A DNA stretch of 64,000 nt, taken from positions 248,001 to 312,000 of the forward strand of contig NZ_QYRN01000003.1 in NCBI RefSeq assembly GCF_003583935.1. Direction: 5' to 3'. Of this stretch, positions 7,501 to 24,624 are shown in pieces. Position 1 is the first letter of the stretch. Each line of letters starts with the position of its first letter. The notes beneath the pieces are model-generated. The model was not told where the DNA came from. It made no database searches and worked only from the letters and a program-made list of their open reading frames with translations. The translations under genes and the position numbers were made by a program. This DNA is from Aureimonas flava. GTDB lineage: Bacteria; Pseudomonadota; Alphaproteobacteria; Rhizobiales; Rhizobiaceae.

Positions 7501-9126
7501 ATGACGGACGCCGTGCTTTCCATCCGCGACCTGCGCGTCGCCTTCGACACCGAGGACGGACCGGTGGAGGCCGTGAAGGGCGTGTCCTTCGAGGTGGCCC
7601 CGGGCGAGACGCTGGCCGTGGTCGGCGAATCGGGCTCGGGCAAGAGCCAGACCATGATGGCGGTGATGGGCCTCCTGGCCGCCAACGGGTACGCCTCGGG
7701 CTCGGCACGCTATCGCGGCGAGGAGATCCTCGGCCTCCCCGCCCGCCGGCTCAACCGCTATCGCGGCGCGAAGATCTCGATGATCTTCCAGGAGCCGATG
7801 ACCTCCCTCGATCCGCTCTACCCGGTCGGCCGGCAGATCGGCGAGGTGATCCGCCACCATTCGCGGCGGCGCGGCGGGGCGGTGCGCGAGCGGGTGCTGG
7901 AGCTCCTGCGCCTCGTCGGCATCCCCGAGCCCGAGCGGCGGATCGACAGCTTCCCGCACGAGCTGTCGGGCGGCCAGCGCCAGCGCGTGATGATCGCCAT
8001 GGCGCTCGCCAACGATCCCGAGCTTCTCATCGCCGACGAGCCGACGACCGCCCTCGACGTGACCGTGCAGGCGCAGATCCTCAAGCTCCTGGCCGAGCTG
8101 CAGGCGCGGCTCGGCATGGCGATCCTCCTGATCACCCACGACCTCGGCGTGGTGCGCCACTTCGCCGGGCGGGTGGTGGTGATGCGGCGGGGCGAGGTGG
8201 TCGAGGAGGGTGCGACGGAAACGATCTTCTCCGCGCCCCGGCGCGACTACACGAAGATGCTGCTCGCGGCCGAGCCGCAGGGCGGCAAGGGTCCGGTCCC
8301 GCCCGGCTCGCCCGTGGTGCTTTCGGCAAGGGACGTTGTGGTGGACTACGACCTGCGCGGCACGCGCGGCCTCTTCTCCAAGGGGCCGGACACGTTCCGG
8401 GCGGTGGACCACGTGTCGCTGGAGCTGCGCAGCGGCCAGACGATCGGCGTGGTCGGCGAATCGGGTTCGGGCAAGTCGACGCTCGGCCGCGCCATCCTGC
8501 GCCTCCTGCCCAGCGGCGGACACTACCGCTTCGAGGGTCGGGATATCGGTGCCTTCGACCGCCGGCGGATGCGCCCCTTGCGGCGCGAGCTCCAGCTCAT
8601 GTTCCAGGACCCGTTCGGCTCGCTGAGCCCCCGGCTCACCGTGGGCGAGATCGTGACCGAGGGCCTGCTGGTCCACGAGCCGGCCCTGTCGGCCGCCGAC
8701 CGGGCGAGACGCGCGGCGGCGGCGCTGGAGGAGGTCGGCCTGCCGCCCGAGGCGCACAACCGCTATCCGCACGAATTCTCCGGCGGACAGCGCCAGCGCA
8801 TCGCCATCGCGCGGGCGATGATCCTGAAGCCCAAGGTCGTGGTGCTGGACGAGCCCACCTCGGCGCTCGACCGCTCGGTGCAGGTGCAGATCGTGGACCT
8901 CCTGCGCGCGCTCCAGCGCGACCACGGCCTGTCCTACGTCTTCATCAGCCACGACCTCGCGGTGGTGCGGGCGATCTCGGACCATATCCTGGTGATGAAG
9001 GACGGGCGGCTGGTGGAAGAGGGCGCGACGCAGGACATCTTCTCCGCGCCGCGCCAGGACTACACGCGCACCCTGATCGCCGCCGCCTTCGACGCCAAGC
9101 GCCCGCGCGAGGCGGCGGCCTCCTGA
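7501..9126 (+). CDS. Fused dipeptide ABC transporter ATPase (OppD-OppF / YejF type)
   Basis: A 541-residue protein with two complete ABC ATPase domains. Domain one (about 1-260) has Walker [10 protein letters not shown], signature LSGGQRQR and Walker B LLIADEP. Domain two (about 275-535) has Walker [10 protein letters not shown], signature FSGGQRQR and Walker B VVVLDEP. Both have the switch His (ITHD and ISHD), so both sites look competent. The start is the ATG at 7501, three bases after the stop of the oppC-like gene; an upstream reading extends far into that gene. Fusion of the two ATPases is as in YejF of the microcin C importer. Confidence 0.92.
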
Positions 9127-9134
9127 CAACGAGG

Positions 9135-9169
9135 AAGGGGCGCCGGGGCTTCCTGCCCCCGCGCCCCTT
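9135..9169 (+). terminator. Rho-independent terminator after the peptide transporter
   Basis: A GC-rich hairpin begins 9 bases after the ATPase stop. The left arm AAGGGGCGCCGGGG (9135-9148) pairs with the right arm at 9156-9169 with a single mismatch, and the right arm ends in CCCCTTT. It separates the rightward operon from the convergent tctA gene. Confidence 0.7.
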
Positions 9170-9201
9170 TCCCATGCGGGTTCCGGCCGACGCGCCGCCG
9201 G

Positions 9202-10704
9202 TCAGGCGGTCCGGGCGGGGCGGATCGTCTGGATGCCCCGCGAGATCAGCGGCCAGGCGAGGAGCAGCAAGGCCAGCGCCATCAGCATGCCCACGAGCCC
9301 GTTCGACCAGAAGATCGACAGGGAGCCGCCCGAATACAGCATCGACTGGCGGAACGCGTCCTCGGCCTTGTCGCCCAGCACCATGGCGAGCACCAGGGGC
9401 GCGATCGGGTAGTCGAGGCGCTTGAAGACGTAGCCGACGATGCCGAAGGCCACGGCCATCATCACGTCGAACTCGGCGTTCGCCACCGTGTAGGCGCCGA
9501 TCAGGCAGACCACGATGATGATGGGCCCGATGATGCCGAACGGAATGCGCAGGATCGAGGCGAACAACGGCACGGTGGCGAGCACCAGCACCACGGCGAC
9601 GATGTTGGAGAGGTACATGGAGGCGATCAGGCCCCAGACGAAGTCGGGCTGCTCCACGAACAGGAGCGGACCGGGCTGGAGGCCCCAGATCATCAGGCCG
9701 CCCATCATCACCGCCGCCGTCGCCGAGCCGGGCACGCCGAGCGCCAGCATCGGCAGGAGCGCCGCGGTGCCGGCCGAGTGGTCGGCGACCTCCGGCGCGA
9801 TCACGCCCTCGGGCTCGCCCTTGCCGAAGTTCCGGCCGTACTTGCCGAAGCGGCGGCCGAGGCCGTAGCTCATGAAGGAGGCGGCCGTGGGCCCACCGGG
9901 GGTGATGCCCATCCAGACGCCGACCGCGGCCGAGCGCAGGAAGGTCACCCAGTAGTGCGGCAGGCGGGCGAGCGCACGGAAGATCTCGTGCACCTCGATC
10001 CGCGAGGACACGCCCTTGAACTTCAGCTCCTCCTGGACCGTGAGCAGCAGCTCGCCGATACCGAAGAGGCCGATCACGGCGACCAGGAACGAGATGCCGC
10101 GCAGGAGGTCGGTCCAGCCGAAGGTGAGGCGCAGCTCGCCCGACACCGTGTCCATGCCCACCGTGGCGAAGGCGAGGCCCGCGAGCAGCGATACCGCCGC
10201 CTTGAGCGGATCGCCGCCGCCCAGGCCGATGAAGGAGCAGAAGGCCAGAAGGTAGATCGCGAAGAACTCGGGGCTCGAGAAGCGCAGCGCGAACTGCGCG
10301 ATCCAGCCGGCCAGGAGGGTGATCACGATGACGCCCGTCAGCGCGCCGATGCCGGCCGAGAAGAAGGCGGTGGACAGCGCCTCCGTCGCCCTGCCCTGCT
10401 TGGCCATCGGGTAGCCGTCGAAGGTGGTGGCGACCGAGGACGGCTCGCCAGGAATGTTGAACAGGATCGAGGTGGTCGACCCGCCGAACAGAGCGCCCCA
10501 GTACATCGAGGAGAGGAGGATGATCGCCGACACCGGGTCCATGGTGAAGGTGAGCGGCAGGAGCAGCGTGACCCCGTTGGGCGCGCCGAGCCCCGGCAGG
10601 ACCCCGACCAGGATGCCGAGCAGCACGCCCATCACGATCAGCGCGACGTGGTAGAAGGAGAACGCGACGGAGAACCCGTGCATCAGGTTGGCGATGTCGG
10701 CCAT
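9202..10704 (-). CDS. tctA: Tripartite tricarboxylate transporter large permease TctA
   Basis: A 500-residue membrane protein with about 11-12 hydrophobic segments, the large subunit of a secondary, binding-protein-dependent carboxylate importer. The family hallmark GVLPGLGAPNGVTLLLPLTF appears near residue 35, and the matching repeat ITPGGPTAASFMSYGLG near residue 270. LALGVPGSATAAVMMGGL is also conserved. It is the last gene of the leftward catabolic operon. The presence of acid-handling enzymes upstream suggests that the substrate is a sugar acid or hydroxycarboxylate rather than citrate itself. Confidence 0.93.
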   Translation of the reverse strand: MADIANLMHGFSVAFSFYHVALIVMGVLLGILVGVLPGLGAPNGVTLLLPLTFTMDPVSAIILLSSMYWGALFGGSTTSILFNIPGEPSSVATTFDGYPMAKQGRATEALSTAFFSAGIGALTGVIVITLLAGWIAQFALRFSSPEFFAIYLLAFCSFIGLGGGDPLKAAVSLLAGLAFATVGMDTVSGELRLTFGWTDLLRGISFLVAVIGLFGIGELLLTVQEELKFKGVSSRIEVHEIFRALARLPHYWVTFLRSAAVGVWMGITPGGPTAASFMSYGLGRRFGKYGRNFGKGEPEGVIAPEVADHSAGTAALLPMLALGVPGSATAAVMMGGLMIWGLQPGPLLFVEQPDFVWGLIASMYLSNIVAVVLVLATVPLFASILRIPFGIIGPIIIVVCLIGAYTVANAEFDVMMAVAFGIVGYVFKRLDYPIAPLVLAMVLGDKAEDAFRQSMLYSGGSLSIFWSNGLVGMLMALALLLLAWPLISRGIQTIRPARTA

Positions 10705-10717
10705 CGGGCGATCCTCC

Positions 10718-11263
10718 TCAGTAGATGCCCAGAAGCGGCATGACGACGCCCTTGGCGAGCGGCACCTGGAACCAGAACTCGAACGTCACGAAGAACACGG
10801 CCATGGTGGCCACGGCGATGGTGGTCGCCTTGAGAAGGCCGACCTTGCCGAGGGTCATCATGGAGAACACCAGGAACAGCGCGCCGGCCAGGTAGACGCC
10901 GAGCCACGGGATCAGGGCCGCCGCCACGGCGGTCGGCACGAACACGGCGGCGATGCGCCCGAGCGCCCCGTCCTCCAGGAAGCGTTCGTCGAGCCCGGTG
11001 GGCTCGTGCAGCGCCGCCGCGCCGCCGGCCGCCTGCGCCTCGAGGTTCTCCGGTGCGCGCCGGCGCATGGTGAGGCCGTATTTCACGGCGATCACGAGGC
11101 CGAGCACGGTGAGGATCACGCCGATGCGGAACGGGAAATAGCCGGCCGACGGACCGAAGTCCGTCCAGCCGGTTCCGTTCTCCAGGCTTCCATAGGCCGT
11201 GACGACGCCGAGCAGCGTCGCGCTCAGGCCGGTCGCGACTTCGATATGACGACGGGTGACCAT
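10718..11263 (-). CDS. tctB: Tripartite tricarboxylate transporter small permease TctB
   Basis: A 181-residue membrane protein with four hydrophobic segments, of the TctB size and pattern. It is poorly conserved in sequence, as is usual for this subunit. The segment SAGYFPFRIGVILTVLGL is typical: TctB proteins place a G-x-x-FP motif after helix one. The ATG at 11263 was chosen because it gives the normal length; longer readings enter the tctC gene in another frame. It lies between tctC and tctA, with 13 bases between its stop and the tctA start. Confidence 0.88.
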   Translation of the reverse strand: MVTRRHIEVATGLSATLLGVVTAYGSLENGTGWTDFGPSAGYFPFRIGVILTVLGLVIAVKYGLTMRRRAPENLEAQAAGGAAALHEPTGLDERFLEDGALGRIAAVFVPTAVAAALIPWLGVYLAGALFLVFSMMTLGKVGLLKATTIAVATMAVFFVTFEFWFQVPLAKGVVMPLLGIY

Positions 11264-11340
11264 CGCGCGTCCTCTCCCTTTGAAGACGGTGGTGCGACGG
11301 GACGGCCGGCGCGCGGCCGCCCCGCTTGCGGCTTGGCGGC

Positions 11341-12339
11341 TCAGTTCACCAGCCAGCCGTCCGCCTCGAACTGCTTGCGCGAGCGCTCGACGTCGGCGGC
11401 GATGTAGGACTTGAACTCGTCGCCGGTCAGGAAGCGCGCCGTCTGCGAGGTGTTCTTGAGGTAGGCCTTGAACTCCGGCGTCTCGGACACGCGCCTCAGG
11501 AGGCCGGTGTACCAGGCGACCGCCTCGGCCGGCACGTCGGCCGGGGCGAACACGGTGCGCGGCATCTGGTAGGCGTCGACCTGGAGCCCCTGCTCCCGGC
11601 AGGTCGGAATGTCGTTCCACGACATGGTCTCGGTGACCTTGGTCGTGTCCGCCATTCGCTGGTCGGCCATCACGCAGAGCGGCTTGGCCTGACCGGCGCG
11701 CCACTGTCCGACGTTCTCGGCCGGGTTGTTGGTGTTGGCGTCGATGTGGTTGCCGGCGAGCTGCACGGCGGCCTCGGAGCCCGACTTGAAGGGGATGTAG
11801 AGGAACTTCGCGCCCGTGGCGCCCTCGATGCGGCGTACCAGCGTCTGGTCGACGTCCTTGGACTGCGAGCCGCCGAAGCGGACCTTGCCGGGGTTCGCCT
11901 TTCCGGCCTCCACCAGGTCGGCGATCGTGTTGTAGGGGCTGTCGGCCTGCACCCAGACCACGAACTCGTCCACCGCGAGCGTGGCGATCGGCGTCAGGTC
12001 CTCGGCCTTGTAGCCGAGGCGGGTGACCAGCGGGAGCTGCCACTCGTTCGAGGTGCCGAAGATCAGCTTGTACTCGTCGCCGGACGCGCCCGCGCCGTAG
12101 ATGAAGGCCTCGGCGCCCGAGCCGCCGCCCTTGTTGGCGACCACGACGTTCTGCGGCGACAGGTCTTCCTTGGCGATCGCGGCCTGGATCTGGCGCGCGA
12201 ACTGGTCGGTTCCCCCGCCGGCCCCGCCGGCGGCCACGAACTCGATGGGCTTCGTCGGAGCCCATTGCGCCTGGGCGGGCGCGGCGAGCGTGGCCGCGAG
12301 GGCGAGGGTCGCGAGGGCGGTGGTGGTGAAGAGCTTCAT
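11341..12339 (-). CDS. tctC: Tripartite tricarboxylate transporter substrate-binding protein (TctC/Bug family)
   Basis: A 332-residue periplasmic receptor. A signal peptide ends at APAQAQ near residue 25. The mature protein starts with PIEFVAAGGAGGGTDQFAR, the carboxylate-binding loop of Bug proteins, and later shows GGSQSKDVDQ and YIPFKSGSEAAVQLAGNHID, both standard in the family. It captures a carboxylate ligand and hands it to TctAB. It is preceded by 76 bases without a gene after the kinase. Bug receptors are strongly expanded in some proteobacteria and the ligand cannot be read from sequence. Confidence 0.92.
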   Translation of the reverse strand: MKLFTTTALATLALAATLAAPAQAQWAPTKPIEFVAAGGAGGGTDQFARQIQAAIAKEDLSPQNVVVANKGGGSGAEAFIYGAGASGDEYKLIFGTSNEWQLPLVTRLGYKAEDLTPIATLAVDEFVVWVQADSPYNTIADLVEAGKANPGKVRFGGSQSKDVDQTLVRRIEGATGAKFLYIPFKSGSEAAVQLAGNHIDANTNNPAENVGQWRAGQAKPLCVMADQRMADTTKVTETMSWNDIPTCREQGLQVDAYQMPRTVFAPADVPAEAVAWYTGLLRRVSETPEFKAYLKNTSQTARFLTGDEFKSYIAADVERSRKQFEADGWLVN

Positions 12340-12415
12340 GGATCATGCCTCCCAGACGGATCGTTGAAGGAAAGGGAACCCGGCCGCCTGCGCGACCGGG
12401 CCATGCGTCGGCCGG

Positions 12416-14128
12416 CTAGCCGGCGTTCAGGACCTCGCCCACGGTGCGGGCGCAGAGCGCGAGCGAGACGGCGCCGGCATCGGGATGGCCGATGCTCTTG
12501 GCGGCGAGCGGACGGGCGCGCCCGAGGCGCGGGGTGAGCTTGGCGGTCTCGTCGGCGGCGCGGGTCGAAGCTTCCGCGGCCCGGACCCAGGCGTCGCGCA
12601 GCCGCGCCCCGCCCCGGACCTCGGCTTCCAGCGCATCGACGAAGGGCACCAGAGCGTCCACCAGCGTCTTGTCGCCGGGCTTGGCGCGGCCGAGCGTCGT
12701 CACCGCCTCGCGGGCGGCCAGCGCACCGCGCACGGCGGCGTCGGCATCGACACCCGCCCGGTCGCCGAGAGCCGTGCCGAAGCCGCGCAGGAGAAGGCCC
12801 CAGATCGCCCCGGACGTGCCGCCAGCCGTGTCGGCCCAGCGGTCGCCGGCATGGGCGAGGAGCGAGCCGGCACCCGCGCCGGCGGCCAGCGCCTTGCGCG
12901 CGCCTTCGGCGGCCGAGGCCGAGCCGCGGCGCATGCCCTGGCCATGGTCGCCGTCGCCGGCCACCGCGTCGATCCGCCCGAGCTCCTCCTCGGCCTCGGC
13001 CAGCACCGCCGCGAGCCGCTCCACGATGGCGCAGGCCTTGGCCGCGCTCTCGCGCGAGGCGTCCGAGGCCTCGGGGAAGCTCGGGACGTCCGTGCCCGTC
13101 TCCACCGGCTTGGGTGCCGCCGGGCGCGGTTCGACATGACCGCGCCGGAAGGCGGCGCCGTGCGCCGGGGCCAGCCAGAGCGGCTCCAGCTCCGCGTCGA
13201 GCCAGGTGAGCGTCAGCGAGCAGCCGGCCATGTCGAGCGAGGTGACGAACTCGCCGACCTCCGGGTGGACCAGCGTCAGCCCCGCGCCGCGCAGACGCCG
13301 GGCGACATGGGTCCAAAGGACGAAAAGCTCCTCGTATTTCGTGGCGCCGAGCCCGTTGAGCAACACGGCGACGCGCCCGTCCGCACCCTCCGGGCGCTCG
13401 GCGAGCAGCGGCTCGACCAGGAGGTCGGCGAGCGCCTCGGCGGACATCGCCTTCTCGTCGCGGATGCCCGGCTCGCCGTGGATGCCGAGGCCGATTGCGA
13501 CGGCGCCCTTCTCCACCGTGAAGAGCGGCGCCTCGGCGCCGGGCAGCGTGCAGCCGGAGAACGCGATGCCGAGGGACTGGGTGCGCGCGTTGGCGTGGCG
13601 CGCCAGGCGCTCCACCTCGTCGAGGCTCATGCCCGCTTCGGCAGCCGCGCCCGCGATCTTGAACACCGGCACGTCGCCCGCGACCCCGCGCCGAAGCTCG
13701 GGCGTCTCCTTCGGCGCGCTCGCCACGTCGTCGGTGACGGCCAGGACGCGCACGTCGATCCCCTCGCCGCGCAGGCGGGTCGCCGCCGCGCCGAAGTTCA
13801 GGACGTCGCCGGCATAGTTGCCGAAGCCGAGCACGATGCCGCCGCCGCGATGGGCCTGCCGGCAGATGCGCGCGACCGATTCCGTCGAGGGCGAGGCGAA
13901 CACGTCGCCGGCCACCGTGGCATCGGCCAGGCCGACGCCGACATAGCCGCCGAAGGCCGGGTAGTGTCCCGAGCCGCCGCCGATCACCAGGGCGACCTTG
14001 CCGTCCGGCGTCCCGGTCGCCCGCACGGCGCCGCCGCGCACATGGTGGACCAGATGGGAATGGACGTCGCAGAAGCCCTCGAGGGCGTCCCTTGCGAAAC
14101 GTTCGGGTTCGTCGTGGATCAGCGTCAT
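12416..14128 (-). CDS. Fused DhaK-DhaL dihydroxyacetone kinase family protein
   Basis: A 570-residue ATP-dependent kinase of the dihydroxyacetone kinase family. The DhaK domain (1-330) has GGGSGHYPAFGGYVG with His55, GNYAGDVLNF with Asp108, and GIHGEPG with His217, the residue that binds the keto substrate covalently. After a Pro-rich linker, the DhaL domain (about 355-570) has the magnesium-binding GDGDHGQGM (Asp392, Asp394) and DTAGGTSGAIWG. Both active centres look intact. Relatives phosphorylate dihydroxyacetone, D-glyceraldehyde or erythrulose. Placement beside a PdxA-type dehydrogenase and a TIM-barrel enzyme points to a four-carbon or branched keto-sugar. The ATG overlaps the stop of the upstream gene in ATGA (14125-14128). 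Confidence 0.9.
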   Translation of the reverse strand: MTLIHDEPERFARDALEGFCDVHSHLVHHVRGGAVRATGTPDGKVALVIGGGSGHYPAFGGYVGVGLADATVAGDVFASPSTESVARICRQAHRGGGIVLGFGNYAGDVLNFGAAATRLRGEGIDVRVLAVTDDVASAPKETPELRRGVAGDVPVFKIAGAAAEAGMSLDEVERLARHANARTQSLGIAFSGCTLPGAEAPLFTVEKGAVAIGLGIHGEPGIRDEKAMSAEALADLLVEPLLAERPEGADGRVAVLLNGLGATKYEELFVLWTHVARRLRGAGLTLVHPEVGEFVTSLDMAGCSLTLTWLDAELEPLWLAPAHGAAFRRGHVEPRPAAPKPVETGTDVPSFPEASDASRESAAKACAIVERLAAVLAEAEEELGRIDAVAGDGDHGQGMRRGSASAAEGARKALAAGAGAGSLLAHAGDRWADTAGGTSGAIWGLLLRGFGTALGDRAGVDADAAVRGALAAREAVTTLGRAKPGDKTLVDALVPFVDALEAEVRGGARLRDAWVRAAEASTRAADETAKLTPRLGRARPLAAKSIGHPDAGAVSLALCARTVGEVLNAG

Positions 14129-15078
14129 GCCGTGGCCTCCGGTCTGGGAAGGATGCGGCGCAGATAGTCGCGGTTGGTGGCGCTCACGGAAAGTCCGTCG
14201 CCCCCGTAGTGCTCGACCAGGAAGGGCGAGCGGAAGCCGTGGGCGAGCGCCATGCCGATCGCCGTGCGATAGTTGATCGTGCCGAACTCGAGGGGCGCCG
14301 GCGCGGTCATGATCGCGCCGGTCGTCTCGTCCTCGATCCGGGTGTAGTTCTTGACGTGCCAGAAGCCGGCGAAGGGCGCGATCTTCTCCATCATCGCGTG
14401 CCAATGCTCGACCGGCCGGTGGAGGCGGACGAGGTTGCCGATGTCGGCGTTGATCCTGACATTGGGCAGGTCGACGTCGGTGACGAAGCGCACCGCCCCG
14501 TCCGCCGTACCGATCAGCGTGTCCTCGTACATCTCCAGCGAGATCTCGAGACCGAGCTCGGCGGCATGCCGGCCCAGCTCGCGCAGGCGCGAGACGGCCA
14601 GCGCCCAGGTGTCCGCGTCGGTCGGGTTGCGCTCGCCCTGCACCGTCCAGAACCATAGCGCCCGCTTCTGCGCCTCGTTCAGCGGCCCGAAGAAGCCGAA
14701 GGAGACCGCACGCGCGCCAACATTGGCGGCGGTGTCGAGCACGCGGTGCCCGTAGGCGAGGTGCGCCTCGCCGAGCGCTGGGTCGATCAGGTTCTTGCGC
14801 GCCGTGGAGATCGCCGGGATCGTCAGCCCGTGCGAGCGGACCACGTCCATGAACTCCGCGAGCCGCGCGGGCTCCAGGTCGGCGATCCGCAGCCAGCCGT
14901 CCGTCGGGTCCAGCTCGGTGAAGCCCGCGTCCGCGACATCGGCCAGCGCGGCGGACCACTCCTCGGGCGCCTGGTCCTGCGTGGACCGGCCGTCCGGCAG
15001 CGTGCCCGGATACTGGATCATCGCGGCCGCGATCGGCCAGTTGGTTCGGTCGAGCCTCGGCTCGGCTTCAAGGGACAC
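14125..15078 (-). CDS. Xylose-isomerase-like TIM-barrel protein (sugar phosphate isomerase/epimerase family)
   Basis: A protein of about 317 residues with the AP_endonuc_2 fold. Metal-site strands are visible: FTELDPTDGWL near residue 50, ISLEMYEDTLIG with a candidate Glu ligand near 200, VRINADIGNLVR with Asp near 230, FWHVKNY with His near 258, and FLVEHYGGDG with Glu near 300. Isomerases, epimerases and decarboxylases all occur in this superfamily, so the reaction is undetermined. The start is taken as GTG at 15078, 7 bases after GGAGG (complement of 15086-15090); in-frame ATGs at 15084 and 15099 are alternatives. It is coupled to the kinase gene by a 4-base overlap. Confidence 0.82.
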   Translation of the reverse strand: MSLEAEPRLDRTNWPIAAAMIQYPGTLPDGRSTQDQAPEEWSAALADVADAGFTELDPTDGWLRIADLEPARLAEFMDVVRSHGLTIPAISTARKNLIDPALGEAHLAYGHRVLDTAANVGARAVSFGFFGPLNEAQKRALWFWTVQGERNPTDADTWALAVSRLRELGRHAAELGLEISLEMYEDTLIGTADGAVRFVTDVDLPNVRINADIGNLVRLHRPVEHWHAMMEKIAPFAGFWHVKNYTRIEDETTGAIMTAPAPLEFGTINYRTAIGMALAHGFRSPFLVEHYGGDGLSVSATNRDYLRRILPRPEATA

Positions 15079-15113
15079 GCGCATTCCTCCCTCACGCATG
15101 CGGATCGGCGGGC

Positions 15114-16151
15114 CTACTCGGCGGCGGTAGCCAGCGCCCGGCGCTGCTCGGCCATGCGCACGGCCAGGCGGAACGCCTCCCGCGTCGCGCCGAGGTCCGC
15201 CTTGCCCTTGCCGGCGATGTCGTAGGCCGTGCCGTGGGCGGGCGTGCAGAGCGGGAACGGCAGGCCGCCCATCATGGTCACGCCCTTGTCGAAGCCCATG
15301 AGCTTCATCGCGATCTGGCCCTGGTCGTGATACATGGTCAGCACCGCGTGCCAGCCCTCCTTGAGGGCCCGCAGGAACACCGTGTCGGCCGGGAACGGCC
15401 CGTCCACGTCGTAGCCGGCCTCCTTCGCGGCGCGCACGGCGGGCTCGATGATCTCGATCTCCTCCATGCCGAAGGCGCCGCCGTCGCCCGCATGCGGGTT
15501 GAGGCCGTTGACGGCGATGCGCGGGCGCTCGATGCCGGACTGCCGAAGGCAGTCGTGCGTCAGCCTCACCTCCGCCAGGATCGCCTCCACCGAAAGGTGG
15601 GCCGACACGTCCTTGAGCGGGATGTGCGAGGTGACCCGCGCGTTCCAGACCCGCTCCAGAACGTTGAACTCGCGCACCTTGCCCCGGAAGCCGGTGACGT
15701 CCACCACGAAGCGGATTTCGTCGTCGTAGCCCTCGTAGGCGAAGCGCATGGCCTGCTTGTTGAAGGGCGTGAAGATCACCGCGTCGGCGCGCCCGGCATG
15801 GGCCATCTCGAGAGCGCGGCGGAAGTTGGTGGTGGCGAAGGTGCCGCCCTCCAGCGTCGCCTCGCCCCGGCGCACGTCCCTCACGTCGAGATTCTTGAGG
15901 TCGATCATCACCGGGCGGCGGCCGTCGCCGATCGCGTCGATGCCGGACGCCTCGTCGAGATCGAGCGCGACGCCCGCCTCGGCGGCGCCGCGATCGAGGA
16001 TGCGGCGGTCGCCGAACACGACGACGCGGGCGCGCTCGGCCGTCTCCCGATCGGCCAGCAGCATGGCGGTCAGCTCCGGGCTGATACCGGCCGGGTCGCC
16101 CATCGCGAGGGCCACGATCGGACGACCGGCGTCGGTGGTAGCAGAAGCCAT
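15114..16151 (-). CDS. 4-hydroxythreonine-4-phosphate dehydrogenase family protein (PdxA2 type)
   Basis: A 345-residue NAD-dependent dehydrogenase of the PdxA family. It opens ALAMGDPAGISPELTA. The three metal-binding His are present: His176 in TSHIPL, His220 in GLNPHAGDGG and His275 in YHDQG. GLPFPLCTPAHGTAYDIAG closes the active site. Pathway-type PdxA2 proteins oxidatively decarboxylate D-threonate-, D-erythronate- or L-threonate-4-phosphate to dihydroxyacetone phosphate, and the catabolic context favours such a role over pyridoxine synthesis. No DUF1537 kinase, the usual partner, is present. It is the first gene of the leftward operon, divergent from a GntR regulator. The start is the ATG at 16151; an upstream reading extends into the regulator gene. 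Confidence 0.87.
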   Translation of the reverse strand: MASATTDAGRPIVALAMGDPAGISPELTAMLLADRETAERARVVVFGDRRILDRGAAEAGVALDLDEASGIDAIGDGRRPVMIDLKNLDVRDVRRGEATLEGGTFATTNFRRALEMAHAGRADAVIFTPFNKQAMRFAYEGYDDEIRFVVDVTGFRGKVREFNVLERVWNARVTSHIPLKDVSAHLSVEAILAEVRLTHDCLRQSGIERPRIAVNGLNPHAGDGGAFGMEEIEIIEPAVRAAKEAGYDVDGPFPADTVFLRALKEGWHAVLTMYHDQGQIAMKLMGFDKGVTMMGGLPFPLCTPAHGTAYDIAGKGKADLGATREAFRLAVRMAEQRRALATAAE

Positions 16152-16224
16152 TCCCAATTCTCCCGAATGAAGCTCGGCGACAGGGCTAGCCGATCCGCAT
16201 GCAGGTATCAAGCCTTTTTCATTT

Positions 16225-16239
16225 TGTATTCTGCATACA
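16225..16239. promoter_or_regulatory. Candidate GntR/FCD operator, TGTAT-n5-ATACA
   Basis: A perfect 5-base inverted repeat around five bases, in the 190-base divergent region between the pdxA homologue and gntR. FCD-type GntR proteins commonly bind TNGTATACNA-like dyads, and TGTAT/ATACA matches that half-site. It is in an AT-richer stretch than its surroundings, which fits promoter DNA. Confidence 0.55.
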
Positions 16240-16240
16240 G

Positions 16241-16260
16241 CATTCCGGTTTGACGGAATG
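16241..16260. promoter_or_regulatory. Second dyad, CATTCCG-n6-CGGAATG
   Basis: A perfect 7-base inverted repeat with a 6-base spacer, one base downstream of the TGTAT dyad in the same divergent control region. Centre-to-centre distance between the two dyads is about 18-19 bases. It may be a second operator or part of a composite site. Confidence 0.45.
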
Positions 16261-16300
16261 GGCCGTTTGTGGTGATAGGGAGGCCGTCTTCGCGACAGAC

Positions 16301-16318
16301 GCCGCCTGGGCAGGCGGC
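16301..16318 (+). promoter_or_regulatory. Terminator-like hairpin in the gntR leader
   Basis: GCCGCCT, loop GGGC, AGGCGGC, then CTTTTG: a perfect 7-base stem followed by a short T run, ending 23 bases before the gntR start. A transcript started further upstream would meet it before the gene. It could be an attenuator, or could simply block read-through. Confidence 0.45.
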
Positions 16319-16341
16319 CTTTTGCGCTTCGGGAGGGATCG

Positions 16342-17040
16342 ATGAGCGATACGATGTCGACGCCGCGCCCGCTGGACGGAGCCATCGGCTCGGATCTCGG
16401 CCGCATATCGCGCACCTCCTTGCACGACACGATCGTCAACCGGCTGCGCGACATGATCATCGAAGGGGCTCTGGAGCCCGGCACGCGCCTGCACGAGGGC
16501 CAGCTCGGAGAGCAGCTCGGCGTTTCGCGCACGCCGCTGCGCGAGGCGATCAAGTATCTGGCGAGCGAGGGGCTGGTGGAGCTCGTGCCGAGCCGCGGCG
16601 CCGTGGTTCGCCGCTTCGGCCGGAAGGACGTTCACGACATGCTCGTGGTGATCCGCGAGCTGGAGCACCTGGCCGGGCGCCTCGCCTGCGAGGCAGGCAG
16701 CGACGCGGGCATCGCCGGCGTGCGCCGCGCCCACGACGCGATGATCGAGCGCTACCGGGCGGGCGACCGGCTCGCCTACTACAAGCTCAATCAGGAGATC
16801 CACACCCTGATCGTGGAGCTGAGCGGCAACGCGGCGCTCGCCCATGTCCATGCGGGATTGCAGATGCGGCTGAAGCGCGTGCGCTTCATCGGGCACGAGG
16901 GCCCGGAGAAGTGGGCGGCCGCCGTGGCCGAGCACGAGGAAATGATCGCCGCCCTCGAAAAGCGCGACGGCGACGCCCTGGCCGAGATCCTCACCCGCCA
17001 CCTTGCCCGCGCCTGGGACCGCGTGGCGGACATGATCTAG
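16342..17040 (+). CDS. GntR family transcriptional regulator, FCD subfamily
   Basis: A 232-residue regulator. The winged helix (about 25-95) shows LHDTIVNRLRDMIIEGALEPGTRL, then GVSRTPLREAIKYLASEGLVELVPSRGAVV, the textbook GntR DNA-binding segment. The C-terminal all-helical FCD domain has the metal-binding His pattern in NQEIHTLIVE, AEHEEMIAAL and LTRHLARAW. FCD regulators usually sense organic or sugar acids. It is transcribed away from the pdxA-TIM-dhaKL-tctCBA operon, its most likely target. The start is the ATG at 16342, with GGGAGGG upstream. Confidence 0.92.
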   Translation: MSDTMSTPRPLDGAIGSDLGRISRTSLHDTIVNRLRDMIIEGALEPGTRLHEGQLGEQLGVSRTPLREAIKYLASEGLVELVPSRGAVVRRFGRKDVHDMLVVIRELEHLAGRLACEAGSDAGIAGVRRAHDAMIERYRAGDRLAYYKLNQEIHTLIVELSGNAALAHVHAGLQMRLKRVRFIGHEGPEKWAAAVAEHEEMIAALEKRDGDALAEILTRHLARAWDRVADMI

Positions 17041-17095
17041 GGACCGTTCGGCGCGCGCGGCACGGGCGTGCCAGGCGCCGCGCCGGCGTTCGGGG

Positions 17096-17812
17096 TCAGC
17101 GGCTTGGCGGCGCGTCCAGCCGCTTGTCCCAGTCCAGCATCCGCCCCTTCAGCGCCGAGCGGAAGCGGGCCGCGCGGGGAAAGTCCCAGTTCGGGTCGCC
17201 GCCCAGGAACAGGTCGAGAAAGGGGATCGCGAGATCCGGATCGGAGGCCACGTTCTCGCGGAACGAGGCCCAGGAGCGCAGCTCCAGCGCTCCGGCCGAC
17301 AGGTGGATGCCCTCCAGGTCCTGCTCCGCCAGCACCTTGTCGAGCACGGTGATGCAGAACTCGAAATAGAAGACGCCCTCCGGCCAGAAGGCGACCAGCG
17401 CCTCCTCCGGGCGCGCGTCCGCCCCGCCCTGCCCCTTCGCCGCGCCGGCCGCGACGGGCCGGTTGCGGATCAGGCTGGACAGGAGGATGCCGGCCGCGAA
17501 GTGGCTGAAGTCGCGCCGGTCGCGGTCCGCCAGCGCGCGCTGCGCGTCGAACCGGCGCATCCATTCCAGGAAGGCGCGCGTCAGGCTGCGCTGCGTCAGG
17601 TGCAGCTCCACGCCGTAGCGCGTGTTGAACTGCCCGAGCGCGAGCTCGACGGTGCGCGAGAAGTCGCCGAGCCGGCGGATCGAGCGCCGCAGGGCCTGGC
17701 GACCGTCCGCCGCGGGCGTGTCGAGGCTGAGCGTCAGGCCGGGATCGATCAAGGGGCGGGTCGCCTTTCCTGCGGTGGTCTTCAGGGTAGATAGGGAACC
17801 GTGGCGCGCCAT
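17096..17812 (-). CDS. Conserved-looking protein of unknown function
   Basis: A protein of about 238 residues that I do not recognise. It is soluble, mixed helical, and has no signal peptide or transmembrane segment. Notable parts are a helical region rich in Arg and Phe (RSIRRLGDFSRTVELAL), an aromatic patch (FWPEGVFYFEFCITVLDK) and a C-terminal FPRAARFRSALKGRMLDW. The ATG at 17812 lies inside the end of the upstream gene, a 31-base overlap in another frame. No other start was seen near that gene's stop, so the two are probably co-translated. It may belong with the neighbouring SorC regulator only by position. Confidence 0.6.
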   Translation of the reverse strand: MARHGSLSTLKTTAGKATRPLIDPGLTLSLDTPAADGRQALRRSIRRLGDFSRTVELALGQFNTRYGVELHLTQRSLTRAFLEWMRRFDAQRALADRDRRDFSHFAAGILLSSLIRNRPVAAGAAKGQGGADARPEEALVAFWPEGVFYFEFCITVLDKVLAEQDLEGIHLSAGALELRSWASFRENVASDPDLAIPFLDLFLGGDPNWDFPRAARFRSALKGRMLDWDKRLDAPPSR

Positions 17813-18486
17813 GCAGCGGCGAGATCGGCGAAACGCGCCTCGCGCAGCATCGCCCGCCACTCCGCGCCCTCGGCCTCCACCGCGCGATGCGCGCCAAGGA
17901 TCGCAAGCTCGCCCGGCGCCCCGCCGTCGCGCCGGACCAGAACGCCCAGCCAGACCGACAGGGCCATGTGGTCGTTGACGACGGCGCCTTCCTCCGGGTC
18001 GAGCGGTCCCAGCGCGCTGCTGAGGCAGGGGCGCGCCGCGCCGACGGCCGCGAGCCGAGCGGCGGCGCGCGCGGCCGCCGTCGGCGCGTCGGCGACGGGG
18101 TCGCGGCGCCCCGGCTCTTCCGGCGACATCGCGAGACGCAGTTCCGAGACCACCGCGTCGCGCGGGCCGCCGAGCGCCACCACGGCGCGGCACGACGCGT
18201 AGAGATCGGCGCTGTCGGGCGCGGGGCCGCCCGGCCGCAGCGAGGCCGCCAGCCGGTCCAGCGCCTGCCCGAGGTCGGCGTCGCCGCGCGGCAGCATCCG
18301 GCCCGCCATGCGCTCGGCCCGTGTCAGCACGCCATCGGCCACGCGCGCGATGCGCCGCGCCGGCTCCGGCGTTCCCAGAAGCCGGGCGGACAGGACGCCC
18401 GACGCGGCTTCCAGCCGAATCGAGGTGCGAAGGTCCCGTATCCCTTCCTTGAACGGCAGCGTCAGACTATGGGGGTGGGGCAGCAT
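17782..18486 (-). CDS. Protein of unknown function, paired with the downstream gene
   Basis: A 234-residue Ala/Arg-rich soluble protein without a family I recognise. It opens MLPHPHSLTLPFKEGIRDL and contains an NDHMALSVWLGVLVRRDG segment and a helical C-terminus ending in TVPYLP. The ATG at 18486 has GGAGAG upstream at good spacing; longer in-frame readings lack one. It is divergent from the SorC gene across 106 bases and overlaps the next gene by 31 bases. Third-position GC bias supports real coding, but its role is unknown. Confidence 0.6.
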   Translation of the reverse strand: MLPHPHSLTLPFKEGIRDLRTSIRLEAASGVLSARLLGTPEPARRIARVADGVLTRAERMAGRMLPRGDADLGQALDRLAASLRPGGPAPDSADLYASCRAVVALGGPRDAVVSELRLAMSPEEPGRRDPVADAPTAAARAAARLAAVGAARPCLSSALGPLDPEEGAVVNDHMALSVWLGVLVRRDGGAPGELAILGAHRAVEAEGAEWRAMLREARFADLAAAWRATVPYLP

Positions 18487-18592
18487 GGGGCTCTCCGGGC
18501 TGGAGCAACGATTACCATACGATCGGCGGAAGCATGAGACGTTTTGCTGACAACGCAGCCCCCGCGACCGATGCGGCGGACCGGGGCCGCCC

Positions 18593-19564
18593 GTGAAGGG
18601 GCGCTCGCGAAACGGCGCCGAGGCGTCCGCCTCGGACACGCGCGCCGACCGGATGCGGGTGCGGGCCGCATGGATGTACTACGTCGAGGAGATGACGCAG
18701 AGCGACATCGCCGCCGCGCTCGATATCGGACGCGTCAGCGTGGTGCGGATGCTGGCCGAGGCGCGCGCGCGCGGCGAGGTTCGCATCTCGGTATCGGGGG
18801 CGCTGGCCGAGCTGACGGCGGCGGAACGGGCGCTGGAAACCCGCTACGCGCTCGGGAGCGCGGTGGTGGTGCCGGCCCCGGGGCGCGGCGAGGATCCCTC
18901 GCCGGCGATCAGCGCGGCGATCGGCGCCGTCCTGTCCGAGGCCGTGGGCAGCGGCATGGCGGTGGGGCTGGGCTGGGGGCGCACGCTCCTCGAATCCCTG
19001 CCCTTCATCGCGCCCCGGGCGCTGGACGACATGCGCGTGGTGTCGCTGCTCGGCGGCATCTCGCAGGCGCACCGCTTCAATCCGGCCGAGTTCGTCTGGC
19101 GCTTCGCCCAGATCTTCAACGGCGACGCGTTCCTGCTCAGCGCCCCCGCGATCGTCGACGGCCCGGACACCAAGACCGCGCTGGTGGAGCGATGCGGCCT
19201 GCGCTCGACCTTGGAGATGGCCGAGAAGCTCGACCTCGTGGTGCTCAGCGTCGGCGGGATCGAGCGCAACGCCACGACCTACCGCACCGGCTACATCGCC
19301 GAGACCGAGCGCCGCTCGCTGCAGGCGGCCGGCGCGGTCGGCGATCTCCTGTTCCACTTCCTGGACCGCGACGGCGCTTTGGTGGATCATCCGATCAACG
19401 GGCGCATCGTGTCGGCCGACATGGAGGCGATTCGCAGGGCCCCGGAACGCATCCTCGCCTCGGGCGGACCGGAGAAGACGGAGATCCTCCGGGCGGCGCT
19501 GGCCTTCCTGAAGCCCACCGTTCTCGTCACCGACGAAACCACCGCCTCCCGCCTCCTCGACTGA
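18593..19564 (+). CDS. SorC/DeoR-type sugar-binding transcriptional regulator
   Basis: A 323-residue SorC-family regulator. The N-terminal helix-turn-helix reads AAWMYYVEEMTQSDIAAALDIGRVSVVRMLAEAR. The C-terminal effector domain has VGLGWGRTLLESLPF, VVSLLGGISQ and LVVLSVGGIE, and ends in the family's VLVTDETTASRLLD. SorC proteins bind phosphorylated sugars or polyols. The start is GTG at 18593. The gene stands 117 bases upstream of gutM and the PTS genes on the same strand, with a long dyad between them, so it is the likely controller of that operon. Confidence 0.93.
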   Translation: MKGRSRNGAEASASDTRADRMRVRAAWMYYVEEMTQSDIAAALDIGRVSVVRMLAEARARGEVRISVSGALAELTAAERALETRYALGSAVVVPAPGRGEDPSPAISAAIGAVLSEAVGSGMAVGLGWGRTLLESLPFIAPRALDDMRVVSLLGGISQAHRFNPAEFVWRFAQIFNGDAFLLSAPAIVDGPDTKTALVERCGLRSTLEMAEKLDLVVLSVGGIERNATTYRTGYIAETERRSLQAAGAVGDLLFHFLDRDGALVDHPINGRIVSADMEAIRRAPERILASGGPEKTEILRAALAFLKPTVLVTDETTASRLLD

Positions 19565-19603
19565 CCCCGCAGGCCAAGCCTGCCCACTCTTCCCGAGAGT
19601 CTA

Positions 19604-19635
19604 GAACATATTGACTTTCCCTAAGTCAAATGTTC
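19604..19635. promoter_or_regulatory. Long dyad, candidate SorC operator before the PTS operon
   Basis: GAACAT-A-TTGACTT, a 5-base spacer, then AAGTCAA-ATGTTC. The arms match except for one unpaired A at 19610. It lies between sorC and gutM, 47 bases before the gutM start. SorC regulators bind long imperfect palindromes of this kind as tetramers. The inner core TTGAC-TT / AA-GTCAA resembles that of the dyad at 33806. Confidence 0.6.
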
Positions 19636-19681
19636 ACCTGCCTTGACGGGAGCGGGAAACCGAGGTCTCGGGGAGGTTGGC

Positions 19682-20113
19682 ATGACGGGATGGCAAGCCG
19701 CACTCGCGCTTCTGGCGCTCGCCTGGACGCTGCAATGCGTCGGCACCGTGATTCAGGTCCGGCGCTACCGCGCGGCGTTCCGCGACGTCGGCGCCTCGTC
19801 GCAGGACGGCTGGCTGGGCGTCGGCAAGGGCGGCGGCGCGCTGCGCGGCGGCGCGATCGCCATGATCGTCGTGGCGCCGGACGGGCGGGTTCGGCGCGCC
19901 TCCAGCCTCCAGGGACGCACGGTCTTCGCCAAGGCGCGGCGTCTGCACGAGCTGGAAGGGCGCTCCACGGCGGACCTGCGCGTCGAGGCCGAGGCACGGC
20001 GGCGCGAGCCGCTCGGCGCCGCGATCCTCAGCGCGCTCGACCAGGTGGCGCAGGCACGCGCGCGGCAGGCGCCGCCGGGCGCGGCGGACCGGCGCGAGCC
20101 CGTCACCGCCTGA
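19682..20113 (+). CDS. gutM: GutM-like glucitol operon activator / membrane-anchored protein
   Basis: A 143-residue protein with one N-terminal hydrophobic helix (about 4-24) followed by a basic, helical cytoplasmic region, the usual form of GutM. Family-typical pieces are RRYRAAFRDV, a Gly-rich GVGKGGGALRGGAIAMIVV and VRRASSLQGRTVFAKARR. GutM was described as an activator of the E. coli glucitol operon, although its membrane helix suggests a signalling or adaptor role. The ATG at 19682 was chosen for the GGGGAGG just upstream. It is the first gene of the PTS operon. Confidence 0.8.
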   Translation: MTGWQAALALLALAWTLQCVGTVIQVRRYRAAFRDVGASSQDGWLGVGKGGGALRGGAIAMIVVAPDGRVRRASSLQGRTVFAKARRLHELEGRSTADLRVEAEARRREPLGAAILSALDQVAQARARQAPPGAADRREPVTA

Positions 20114-20189
20114 CGGGCGCCCCGCGCCGAGATTTCCGACAACCGCGACGTCGCAACGCCCCGCGCGGGCACGGCTGGGAGGGCCGAAC

Positions 20190-21041
20190 ATGCTGACGAT
20201 GATGATGCTGGCGCAGGGGGCGGCGGATCTGGCCGCGCACGGCGCGATCCACGCCCACGCCCTGGCCGACCCGGCGCTCGCCGCGCCCTTGGCCGACATG
20301 GCCGCCCATCACGGCGCGGCCGCCGCGGACGCCGCGCACGGCGGCGCGACGCTGCTGGCCCAGGCGGCGGATCCGGGCGCCGCCGGCACCGCGGCCGCCA
20401 CGGCTCCGGCCTCGGGCGGCGGGGCGATCTCCTCGGAGGAATACGCCCGGCGCGTGCAGCAGCTTTCCGCCACGGGCAACCAGGAGGAGCAGCTCGGCTG
20501 GCTGGCGACGATCGGCCGTCACTTCATCGGCGTCTTCCAGAAGGGCGGCGAGGTGTTCCTAGGCTTCGTCACCGGCATCATCCCGACGCTGGTGGTGCTG
20601 ATGACCGCCTTCTACGCCCTCACCGGCATGATCGGCGAGGAACGCGTCCACGGCCTCGCCCAGAAGGCCGGCCGCATCGCGCTCACGCGCTACACCGTGC
20701 TTCCCGTGCTCGCGATGTTCTTCCTCACGAACCCGATGGCCTACACGTTCGGCACGTTCCTGGAAGAGAAGCACAAGCCGGCCTTCTACGATTCGGCGGT
20801 GTCCTTCTGCCACCCGATCCTCGGCCTCTTCCCCCATGCCAACGCCGGCGAGTACTTCGTCTGGGGCGGTGTGCTGGTGGCGCTCCTCGAGCTGGAGAAC
20901 CGCGGCGTGATCCCGGCCGGCTACCACATCAATCTCGCGATCTACTACTTCATCGTCGGCGTGGTGGTGATCCTCCTGCGCGGCATCGTTACCGAGCGCG
21001 TCACACGCTTCCTCGCCCAGCGCGAAGGCGTGACGCTGTAA
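20190..21041 (+). CDS. srlA: PTS glucitol/sorbitol-specific EIIC component (SrlA)
   Basis: A 283-residue membrane component of a glucitol-type PTS permease. The conserved core begins near residue 100 with FIGVFQKGGEVFLGFVTGIIPTL and includes FFLTNPMAYTFG and HANAGEYFVWGGVLVAL, hallmarks of the EIIC2 (Gut) family. Relative to the roughly 187-residue E. coli SrlA, it has an N-terminal extension of about 90 residues rich in Ala, His and Asp, with a helical EEYARRVQQL segment before the core. The start ATG has GGGAGG eight bases upstream, so the extension seems real. Confidence 0.92.
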   Translation: MLTMMMLAQGAADLAAHGAIHAHALADPALAAPLADMAAHHGAAAADAAHGGATLLAQAADPGAAGTAAATAPASGGGAISSEEYARRVQQLSATGNQEEQLGWLATIGRHFIGVFQKGGEVFLGFVTGIIPTLVVLMTAFYALTGMIGEERVHGLAQKAGRIALTRYTVLPVLAMFFLTNPMAYTFGTFLEEKHKPAFYDSAVSFCHPILGLFPHANAGEYFVWGGVLVALLELENRGVIPAGYHINLAIYYFIVGVVVILLRGIVTERVTRFLAQREGVTL

Positions 21042-21064
21042 CGGCCCGAAGGGAGGATCGATCG

Positions 21065-22108: not shown

Positions 22109-22175
22109 TCGACGCGACCGGGCGGCGCAGGGTCGCCCGGTCCCTCCCCCGCCCGAAAGCCTGCCCGAGGACATC

Positions 22176-22556
22176 ATGACCCAGTTCCTGCGCACCCGCG
22201 TCACCGCCGTCGGCCCCGACGTTCCCGACCTCCTGGAGGGCGGCGTCCTGATCCTCTTCGCCGAGGGCGCCCCGCCCGAGCTCGCCGAGGTCTCGGTGAT
22301 GCACGCGGTGGTGGGCGCGCCGGCGGCCGAGCCTCCCGCCCCGGGCGCGGCGATCCGCGTCGGCGCCGTGGAGGCGCGGCTCACGGGCATCGGCGAGCTC
22401 GCCTGGGCCAAGGTGCGCGACATCGGGCACGTGGTCGTCAACTTCAACGGCTCGGCGACGCCCGAGCGTCCCGGCGAGCTGACGGCGAGCGCCGTGGACA
22501 GCGCCGAGCTCGCCGCGGCCCTCCAGCCCGGCGCCGAGATCGTCATCGGCGACTGA
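22176..22556 (+). CDS. srlB: PTS glucitol/sorbitol-specific EIIA component (SrlB)
   Basis: A 126-residue cytoplasmic EIIA-Gut protein. His43 in VSVMHAVVG aligns with the phospho-accepting His of E. coli SrlB. The later IGELAWAKVRDIGHVVVNFNG and the ending ALQPGAEIVIGD are family-typical. Length is normal (E. coli 123). It receives phosphate from the HPr domain encoded by the next gene and passes it to SrlE Cys75. The ATG at 22176 lies 67 bases after srlE. Confidence 0.93.
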   Translation: MTQFLRTRVTAVGPDVPDLLEGGVLILFAEGAPPELAEVSVMHAVVGAPAAEPPAPGAAIRVGAVEARLTGIGELAWAKVRDIGHVVVNFNGSATPERPGELTASAVDSAELAAALQPGAEIVIGD

Positions 22557-22589
22557 ACCCTTCTCCCCTTCCGATCGGGATCACGAGCC

Positions 22590-24527: not shown

Positions 24528-24624
24528 GACGCACGGGCCGACCGGAACCGTCGGGGCTGTTTCGCGACGGTCGGCTCGCGGCCGAACCGCGGGCGCAGGC
24601 ACCTCGCGAGGCCGTCCGTCGCCG

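Follow-up and report, generated by a model that had tools for sequence, protein, structure and literature searches.

A recurrent Rhizobiales operon with a PdxA-like dehydrogenase and a DhaK-DhaL kinase suggests an oxidation-first route for a free sugar acid

Which acid does an operon consume, and in what order, when it combines a PdxA-family dehydrogenase and a TIM-barrel protein with a keto-sugar kinase and a tripartite tricarboxylate transporter? In the D-threonate and D-erythronate route, a DUF1537 kinase phosphorylates the acid first and PdxA2 acts afterwards. The operon considered here lies in a 64,000-nucleotide stretch of Aureimonas flava (the window: assembly GCF_003583935.1, contig NZ_QYRN01000003.1, positions 248,001 to 312,000, forward strand), where a preliminary description had placed it at positions 9202 to 17040. 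Its coordinates were correct and the Pfam matches were clear, giving the following features.

9202 to 10704, minus strand: TctA, large membrane subunit (PF01970, 1.6e-143)
10718 to 11263, minus strand: TctB, small membrane subunit (position between TctC and TctA; similarity to Aureimonas relatives)
11341 to 12339, minus strand: TctC, periplasmic binding protein (PF03401, 1.2e-30)
12377 to 12402, minus strand: weak terminator-like hairpin between DhaK-DhaL and TctC (hairpin scan)
12416 to 14128, minus strand: fused DhaK-DhaL keto-sugar kinase (Dak1 and Dak2; NF011049, 737 bits against a cut-off of 492)
14125 to 15099, minus strand: AP_endonuc_2 TIM-barrel enzyme, predicted to form a ketose as a decarboxylase or an epimerase (PF01261, 6.8e-24; 5tnv, 1.1e-85)
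15114 to 16151, minus strand: PdxA-family dehydrogenase lacking the classical contacts to phosphate (PF04166, 6.8e-85; residue test)
16222 to 16243, no strand assigned: putative operator TTTTGTATTCTGCATACAGCAT between the divergent GntR and PdxA genes
16342 to 17040, plus strand: GntR/FCD-family regulator, divergent from the operon (GntR 8.9e-20, FCD 4.3e-24; in 63 of 80 loci)

The operon is real: a GntR/FCD regulator diverges from genes for the PdxA-like dehydrogenase, the AP_endonuc_2 TIM barrel, the fused DhaK-DhaL and TctCBA, with the stop codon of the barrel gene overlapping the kinase start as an ATGA at 14125-14128. All three transporter subunits are present together, TctA and TctC by Pfam and TctB, rather than by a Pfam match, by its position and its similarity to relatives (71 to 93% identity to its positional counterparts in seven Aureimonas loci), and the family of the transporter bears out the earlier idea that an acid is imported. 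To survey the neighborhood, we kept 80 loci carrying the barrel gene and counted their genes by tblastn, as a simple gene caller misplaced some of them (DhaKL in L012, for example). PdxA2 was found in 63 of the 80 and DhaK(L) directly beside the barrel in 69, and 55 held GntR, PdxA2, TctA and an adjacent DhaK(L) together, a recurrence that rules out chance assembly of the gene set. The combination had been put forward as undescribed; we found no description of it in the open literature, as judged by titles and the beginnings of abstracts, but it is not peculiar to this genome, the operon being common to many Rhizobiales. In Sinorhizobium meliloti 1021, the barrel and PdxA2 lie on pSymB (L092), and a different S. 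meliloti (L044) has the complete operon.

The preliminary description had left unclear why a PdxA would be needed, and the substrate pocket now offers a likely answer. We take the substrate-phosphate contacts of classical PdxA to include H136, T137, N283 and R292 (E. coli numbering). Our residue comparison found HT, N and R in the structures of both E. coli PdxA and D-threonate-4-phosphate dehydrogenase, whereas the window protein has E145, I146, T292 and L301 (counted from the M at 16151), so that four of the five presumed contacts are gone (HT/N/R to EI/T/L). Both the family match and the metal-binding histidine triad (H176, H220 and H275) are present. The resulting signature, E-x-K-T-(L/I/V) with HHH kept, recurred in 73 of the 76 complete tblastn rows that lie outside the window, and a PdxA adjoining an aromatic-ring dioxygenase reads YPKT- at the same positions. 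The window protein also fell below the curated cut-off of all seven PdxA-type models that it matched (257 bits against 290 for PdxA; 200 against 583 for D-threonate-4-phosphate dehydrogenase), and "PdxA2" is thus a loose label for it. Because the pocket lacks the presumed phosphate contacts, it is probably the PdxA-like enzyme that opens the route by oxidizing the free acid, and the kinase would come last.

From these features we propose, with slightly less than even confidence, an inducible operon for a free (unphosphorylated) sugar acid, which would be oxidized, decarboxylated to a ketotetrose and only then phosphorylated. TctABC would import the acid; the PdxA-family enzyme, if it keeps PdxA chemistry, would oxidize a hydroxyl, probably at C3, to give a 3-oxo acid; the metal-dependent TIM-barrel enzyme would release CO2 to leave a ketotetrose (erythrulose is the likeliest, formed from an acid of five carbons that may be branched); and DhaK-DhaL, judging by its family, would phosphorylate the ketotetrose. 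Erythrulose phosphate could then enter central metabolism through LerI/DerI-type isomerases, which are encoded elsewhere in the genome and, in some relatives, close to the kinase gene. More tentatively, the route may be a widespread one for a free five-carbon acid, pairing a PdxA subfamily for unphosphorylated aldonates with an epimerase-fold 3-oxo-acid decarboxylase and leading through erythrulose to erythrose-4-phosphate.

The identity of the ketose bears directly on this proposal. The kinase carries DhaK and DhaL domains in one 570-aa chain (Dak1 7.1e-109, Dak2 2.1e-44) and, as the preliminary description had it, is the only kinase of the operon, there being no DUF1537 gene among the operon genes. 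In a sample of genomes of the family, 14 with the barrel and 185 without it, we examined D-erythrulose-4-phosphate isomerase (DerI) and found it above cut-off in 14/14 of the former versus 44/185 of the latter (Fisher 9e-9), or, by genus, in 10/10 versus 30/99 (2e-5). Among the barrel-negative genomes, DerI was present in 21 of 64 with OtnK and in 23 of 121 without it. The co-occurrence favors erythrulose over dihydroxyacetone as the predicted kinase substrate and supports the earlier suggestion of a ketotetrose, as a likely intermediate, that DhaK-DhaL would phosphorylate. Common descent or a broad metabolism may, however, lie behind the co-occurrence: OtnK was enriched too (above cut-off in 11/14 barrel-positive versus 64/185 barrel-negative genomes; p 0.0016), and G804, a third genome of the window's genus, has neither barrel, DerI nor OtnK. 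In favor of the proposal, DerI-like genes lie in 7/80 locus stretches and TpiA-like genes in 6/80, and a DerI-like gene was also seen in Streptomyces L096; against it, DerI is missing from the window operon and from most of the stretches.

Dihydroxyacetone would be the product of a four-carbon route, in which a tetronate is oxidized at C3 without phosphate and decarboxylated, and DhaK-DhaL then yields DHAP directly. This reading, which we consider unlikely but worth weighing, draws on the dihydroxyacetone name carried by the DhaK-DhaL models and on the company that the barrel keeps: D-erythronate dehydrogenase-like genes accompany it in 14/80 loci; OtnK, with or without OtnC or OtnI, lies near it in L054, L069, L078, L086, L094, L116 and L117; and a Nitratireductor PdxA, 55% identical, sits beside OtnK, an aldolase, a TIM-barrel gene and DenD. 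DerI would be needless in such a route, however, yet it occurs in all 14 barrel-positive genomes and, in several lineages, close to the barrel or the kinase, and the genome already has LtnD-OtnK-OtnC-OtnI for L-threonate on a separate contig from the window operon. The locus survey also offers a point in favor of our main proposal. Seventeen of the 80 loci are without PdxA2 (some being cut by contig ends), and because 12 of these 17 hold a D-erythronate dehydrogenase-like SDR in its place, the barrel enzyme seems tied to a hydroxyacid dehydrogenase acting before it; the SDR scored above the D-erythronate dehydrogenase cut-off in L069 (the only one of the 12 scored), L079 and L116. Conversely, a second PdxA2 near TctABC in L064 (in two pieces), L081 and L095 suggests that the PdxA subfamily may also serve acids that bypass the barrel.

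The barrel itself is predicted to be a decarboxylase or an epimerase yielding a ketose. Its E189, D219, H248 and E296 are invariant across 13 aligned sequences, a Glu-Asp-His-Glu set that we take to be the metal set of ketose 3-epimerase-like TIM barrels. The closest solved structure among the matches listed is a Mycobacterium smegmatis TIM barrel, 5tnv (45% identity in the fold alignment), the title of which mentions magnesium; title and molecule name state no function. After it, the fold matches (best 50 of 1907) were mostly sugar and sugar-phosphate 3-epimerases, and there was a weak match to D-psicose 3-epimerase. Together with the fact that PdxA ordinarily decarboxylates its own product, which counts against the decarboxylation that we assign to the barrel, these observations would fit a scheme in which the PdxA-like enzyme both oxidizes and decarboxylates, giving a tetrulose of the wrong configuration that the barrel, as an erythrulose 3-epimerase, corrects before the kinase acts. 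We regard this scheme as rather improbable: where an SDR, 3HCDH or LtnD-like enzyme replaces PdxA, the part of the neighbors that was scored included no distinct enzyme for decarboxylating an unphosphorylated acid. Some of these loci do contain OtnC-like aldolases, the substrates of which are phosphorylated acids.

The partner set of the published apionate route had been reported as not seen, but most of it is present on another contig, where ApnL and OiaX score above cut-off, an OiaK-like kinase scores below it, and genes taken for ApnO and ApsD lie on the same contig. The window operon as the genome's sole L-threonate or D-apionate set is ruled out by these separate sets, and since most of the apionate set is elsewhere, it is probably for an acid other than apionate. 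It is very unlikely that the barrel corresponds to OiaC, the 3-oxo-isoapionate decarboxylase already published, and that the operon forms a branch of D-apionate catabolism: such a branch would share its product and the kinase and isomerases that follow, but PdxA is not known to have a place in the apionate route, the genome has its ApnL/OiaX set already, and the barrel matched no NCBIfam model named OiaC, if such a model exists. Public records annotate relatives of the window PdxA as the vitamin B6 enzyme PdxA; a role here in pyridoxal phosphate synthesis, which that annotation favors, has a negligible probability, because the genome has a separate classical PdxA on another contig with all five residues (HTKNR), and the window protein has lost its phosphate contacts and misses the PdxA cut-off.

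A 13-base core of the putative operator, with at most one substitution, occurred in 63 of 67 intergenic stretches between GntR and PdxA genes; the window accounts for two of the 67. A whole-genome search at up to three mismatches found a single operator-like site, so the GntR/FCD protein probably controls the window operon alone. The genome has two DUF1537 (PF07005) genes, both on other contigs, and, within what a single operator-like site can reveal, nothing pointed to a DUF1537 kinase under the same control. A promoter scan of the region found none, and terminator-like hairpins numbered 5 against 2.2 expected (sd 1.7).

How does the proposed route compare with known systems? The D-threonate/D-erythronate route likewise has a PdxA-family enzyme oxidize a small sugar acid, but its PdxA2 retains HT/N/R (6e85, 2hi1) and its kinase is DUF1537 rather than DhaK-DhaL; our proposal turns the order of that route around, placing oxidation at the start and the kinase at the end. 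TphB, the terephthalate dihydrodiol dehydrogenase (4aty), is presumably a PdxA fold acting on an unphosphorylated acid, albeit an aromatic one in contrast to the proposed sugar acid, and the dioxygenase-linked PdxA relative is likewise without HT/N/R. Carter et al. in 2018 reportedly described conversion of D-apionate to L-erythrulose, followed by erythrulose phosphate isomerases, a course like our proposal except that an oxidoisomerase takes the place of PdxA. L-threonate is degraded by LtnD-OtnI-OtnK-OtnC (PMC12540250), which D-erythronate enters through DenD (PMC10580937); as outlined there, oxidation again precedes phosphorylation and an isomerase-type TIM-barrel step lies mid-route, but a DUF1537 kinase acts on the 3-oxo acid and decarboxylation comes last.

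If our proposal is true, the order of kinase and dehydrogenase is reversed relative to the textbook PdxA route, and a short residue signature, from which we predict a dehydrogenase for free acids, separates the window-type enzymes from vitamin B6 PdxA. Assigning a function to the 5tnv structure family would also become easier, and the operon would offer a testable sugar-acid sink in Sinorhizobium, Ensifer, Rhizobium, Aureimonas and their relatives, bacteria of a plant-associated type.

The gene combination singled out in the preliminary description, TctABC with a PdxA-like dehydrogenase, a TIM-barrel protein and a fused DhaK-DhaL kinase under a GntR regulator, was confirmed in this genome of 4.09 Mb, where six minus-strand genes span window positions 9202-16151 and the regulator diverges from them.

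Genes of the operon and its regulator (window coordinates)
9202-10704, minus strand, TctA
10718-11263, minus strand, TctB
11341-12339, minus strand, TctC
12416-14128, minus strand, fused DhaK-DhaL (DhaKL)
14125-15099, minus strand, TIM-barrel protein (Pfam AP_endonuc_2; "the barrel")
15114-16151, minus strand, PdxA-like dehydrogenase (PdxA2)
16342-17040, divergent from the operon, GntR/FCD regulator

The stop codon of the barrel gene and the start codon of the kinase gene overlap as ATGA. Beyond the regulator lie a 365-aa minus-strand reading frame (17096-18193) with no Pfam match at E 1e-5 and, on the plus strand (18593-24527), a DeoR/SorC-type sugar-binding regulator, GutM, EII-GUT, EIIBC-GUT and then a PEP-utilizing enzyme domain, which together look like a sorbitol PTS operon; sugar-importing PTSs are uncommon in the host's order.

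A scan of the genome collection returned 388 stretches encoding barrel relatives, the closest being eight Aureimonas records (83-90%). We kept the best 80 of the 388 and counted all of them, including those cut by contig ends. PdxA2 and GntR were each found in 63 of the 80, TctA in 56 and a DhaK(L) gene adjoining the barrel gene in 69; all four occurred together in 55. Because the same gene set recurs across lineages, the operon is conserved and not peculiar to this genome. Its order is PdxA2-barrel-DhaKL-TctCBA in Aureimonas and PdxA2-TctCBA-barrel-DhaKL in some of the Rhizobium loci and most of those from Ensifer, Sinorhizobium, Shinella and Brucella, and TctABC lies downstream on the opposite strand in loci L064, L072, L081, L083 and L087. 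Near the Tct genes of those loci and of L094 and L114 there is a DRL-type oxidoreductase (scored by Pfam match in L094 and L114 and by tblastn in the others), which, speculatively, may act as a branched-acid oxidoisomerase. The distribution is patchy: in overlapping samples that each include the window's own genome, the barrel was detected in 14 of 199 family genomes (E 1e-60), 5 of 297 order genomes (E 1e-40) and 5 of 398 phylum genomes (E 1e-30). One homologue from the same order (L010) carries a single in-frame TAG, which may mark a decayed copy or be a sequencing error.

In alignments, the presumed substrate contacts, chiefly to the phosphate, are His-Thr, Asn and Arg in the structures of Escherichia coli PdxA and D-threonate-4-phosphate dehydrogenase. 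In the window protein these positions are occupied by Glu-Ile, Thr and Leu, while the three metal histidines and a Lys assigned to the same contact set are kept. A tblastn comparison across the retrieved loci gave 81 rows, of which 76 remained after removal of 2 window rows and 3 partial ones. Glu-(Ile/His/Met)-Lys-Thr-(Leu/Ile/Val) occurred in 73 of the 76, which are no random sample of PdxA proteins, most loci having been chosen for their barrel gene; His-Thr-Lys-Asn-Arg occurred in 2, both being the window genome's own classical PdxA, fetched twice, and Tyr-Pro-Lys-Thr-gap in 1, a Rhodococcus PdxA adjoining an aromatic-ring dioxygenase. Relatives that neighbor an MFS transporter and LysR regulator in Pantoea (L101) or TRAP and rhamnonate-dehydratase-type genes in Paracoccus albus (L103) likewise lack the His-Thr, Asn and Arg residues. 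TphB (structure 4aty) and similar PdxA relatives act on unphosphorylated acids. On the simplest reading of these residues, the PdxA-like enzyme is predicted to oxidize the free acid before any kinase acts, in which case a DUF1537 kinase would not be needed.

The best solved relative of the barrel, 5tnv from Mycobacterium smegmatis, carries no named function. It was also the top fold match of the AlphaFold model (mean pLDDT, 80), followed, among the best 50 of 1907 matches, mostly by sugar or sugar-phosphate 3-epimerases. Glu189, Asp219, His248 and Glu296, presumably the metal set of this epimerase-like fold, were invariant in 13 aligned sequences. A D-erythronate dehydrogenase-like SDR was present in 12 of the 17 barrel loci lacking PdxA2, and a 3HCDH-type gene in 9 of the 80. 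The three SDRs scored, those of L069, L079 and L116, exceeded the D-erythronate dehydrogenase cut-off, L079 having PdxA2 as well. In Streptomyces (L096) the barrel and DhaKL are accompanied by a DerI-like gene, a gene resembling L-threonate dehydrogenase that scores below cut-off, and a GntP permease. Since the partner dehydrogenase is swapped across lineages, the barrel seems to act downstream of a hydroxyacid dehydrogenase. A decarboxylase giving a ketose fits these settings well; an epimerase fits best where PdxA can decarboxylate unaided.

Conversion of L-erythrulose-1-phosphate to erythrose-4-phosphate by LerI and DerI is described in PMC10733421. Counted by genus, DerI, a D-erythrulose-4-phosphate isomerase, was present in 10/10 barrel-positive versus 30/99 barrel-negative genera (P = 2e-5); the barrel and DerI counts come from two draws of 199 genomes, treated as identical since the genome identifiers listed for them match. 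Catabolic breadth was controlled for with OtnK, the DUF1537 kinase of the tetronate route, found in 11/14 barrel-positive versus 64/185 barrel-negative genomes (P = 0.0016). Among the latter, DerI occurred in 21/64 with OtnK and 23/121 without it. Because OtnK is enriched too, and because another genome of the window's genus (G804) lacks barrel, DerI and OtnK alike, the DerI signal may partly reflect breadth or ancestry. The DerI association is nonetheless stronger than that of OtnK, with zero exceptions among the 14 barrel-positive genomes. DerI-like and TpiA-like genes occur in 7 and 6 of the 80 locus stretches, respectively, and the window genome's DerI is on the same contig, ~220 kb away and ~3 kb from a TpiA-type gene. 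We favor erythrulose over dihydroxyacetone as the product, and therefore a five-carbon acid rather than a four-carbon acid giving dihydroxyacetone.

That the acid is instead a four-carbon tetronate, with dihydroxyacetone as the product, we consider rather unlikely; it gains weight because tetronate-gene loci L054, with OtnK near the barrel, and L086 join the evidence against a five-carbon acid. OtnK, OtnC and OtnI lie near the barrel in L069, L078 and L086 (Gluconacetobacter) and in L116 and L117. In Paracoccus (L094) the operon extends into genes for a DRL/SAF protein, an OtnK that passes its cut-off and an aldolase, and in Nitratireductor (L102) a 55%-identical PdxA has OtnK, DenD, an aldolase gene and a TIM-barrel gene as neighbors. 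Asaia and its relatives have the barrel with no adjoining DhaK. All these loci are consistent with a four-carbon acid or with other roles, and more than one acid may be handled by the family.

A sugar-acid pathway with the kinase last and a repurposed PdxA is our best reading, at not quite even confidence. Searches of the openly accessible literature turned up no paper that seems to describe this gene combination; because many subscription papers lie outside that coverage, we call it undescribed only as far as openly accessible literature goes.

A 13-base core of the putative operator is present, intact or with a single substitution, in 63 of 67 GntR-PdxA intergenic stretches (2 of the 67 being the window itself), the exceptions being L095, L102, L112 and L114. 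The 22-base operator-like site occurs once in the window genome at up to three mismatches, so that, judged by site matches, the regulon probably comprises this operon alone. The genome holds other acid gene sets. Contig C9 encodes LtnD (427 bits; cut-off, 350) and OtnK (567; 350), with OtnC and OtnI assigned by similarity only. A D-apiose/D-apionate set on contig C5 (positions 9000-25000) includes the D-apionate lactonase ApnL (853; 750), OiaX (751; 700), an OiaK-like kinase that misses its cut-off (443; 700) and two genes taken for ApnO and ApsD with no curated match, a TctA-type gene lying ~4.5 kb away. Growth on D-apiose is reported in PMC11747546 for a member of the Rhodobacteraceae that carries an apiose gene cluster. 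The window operon is probably a third acid route of this genome.
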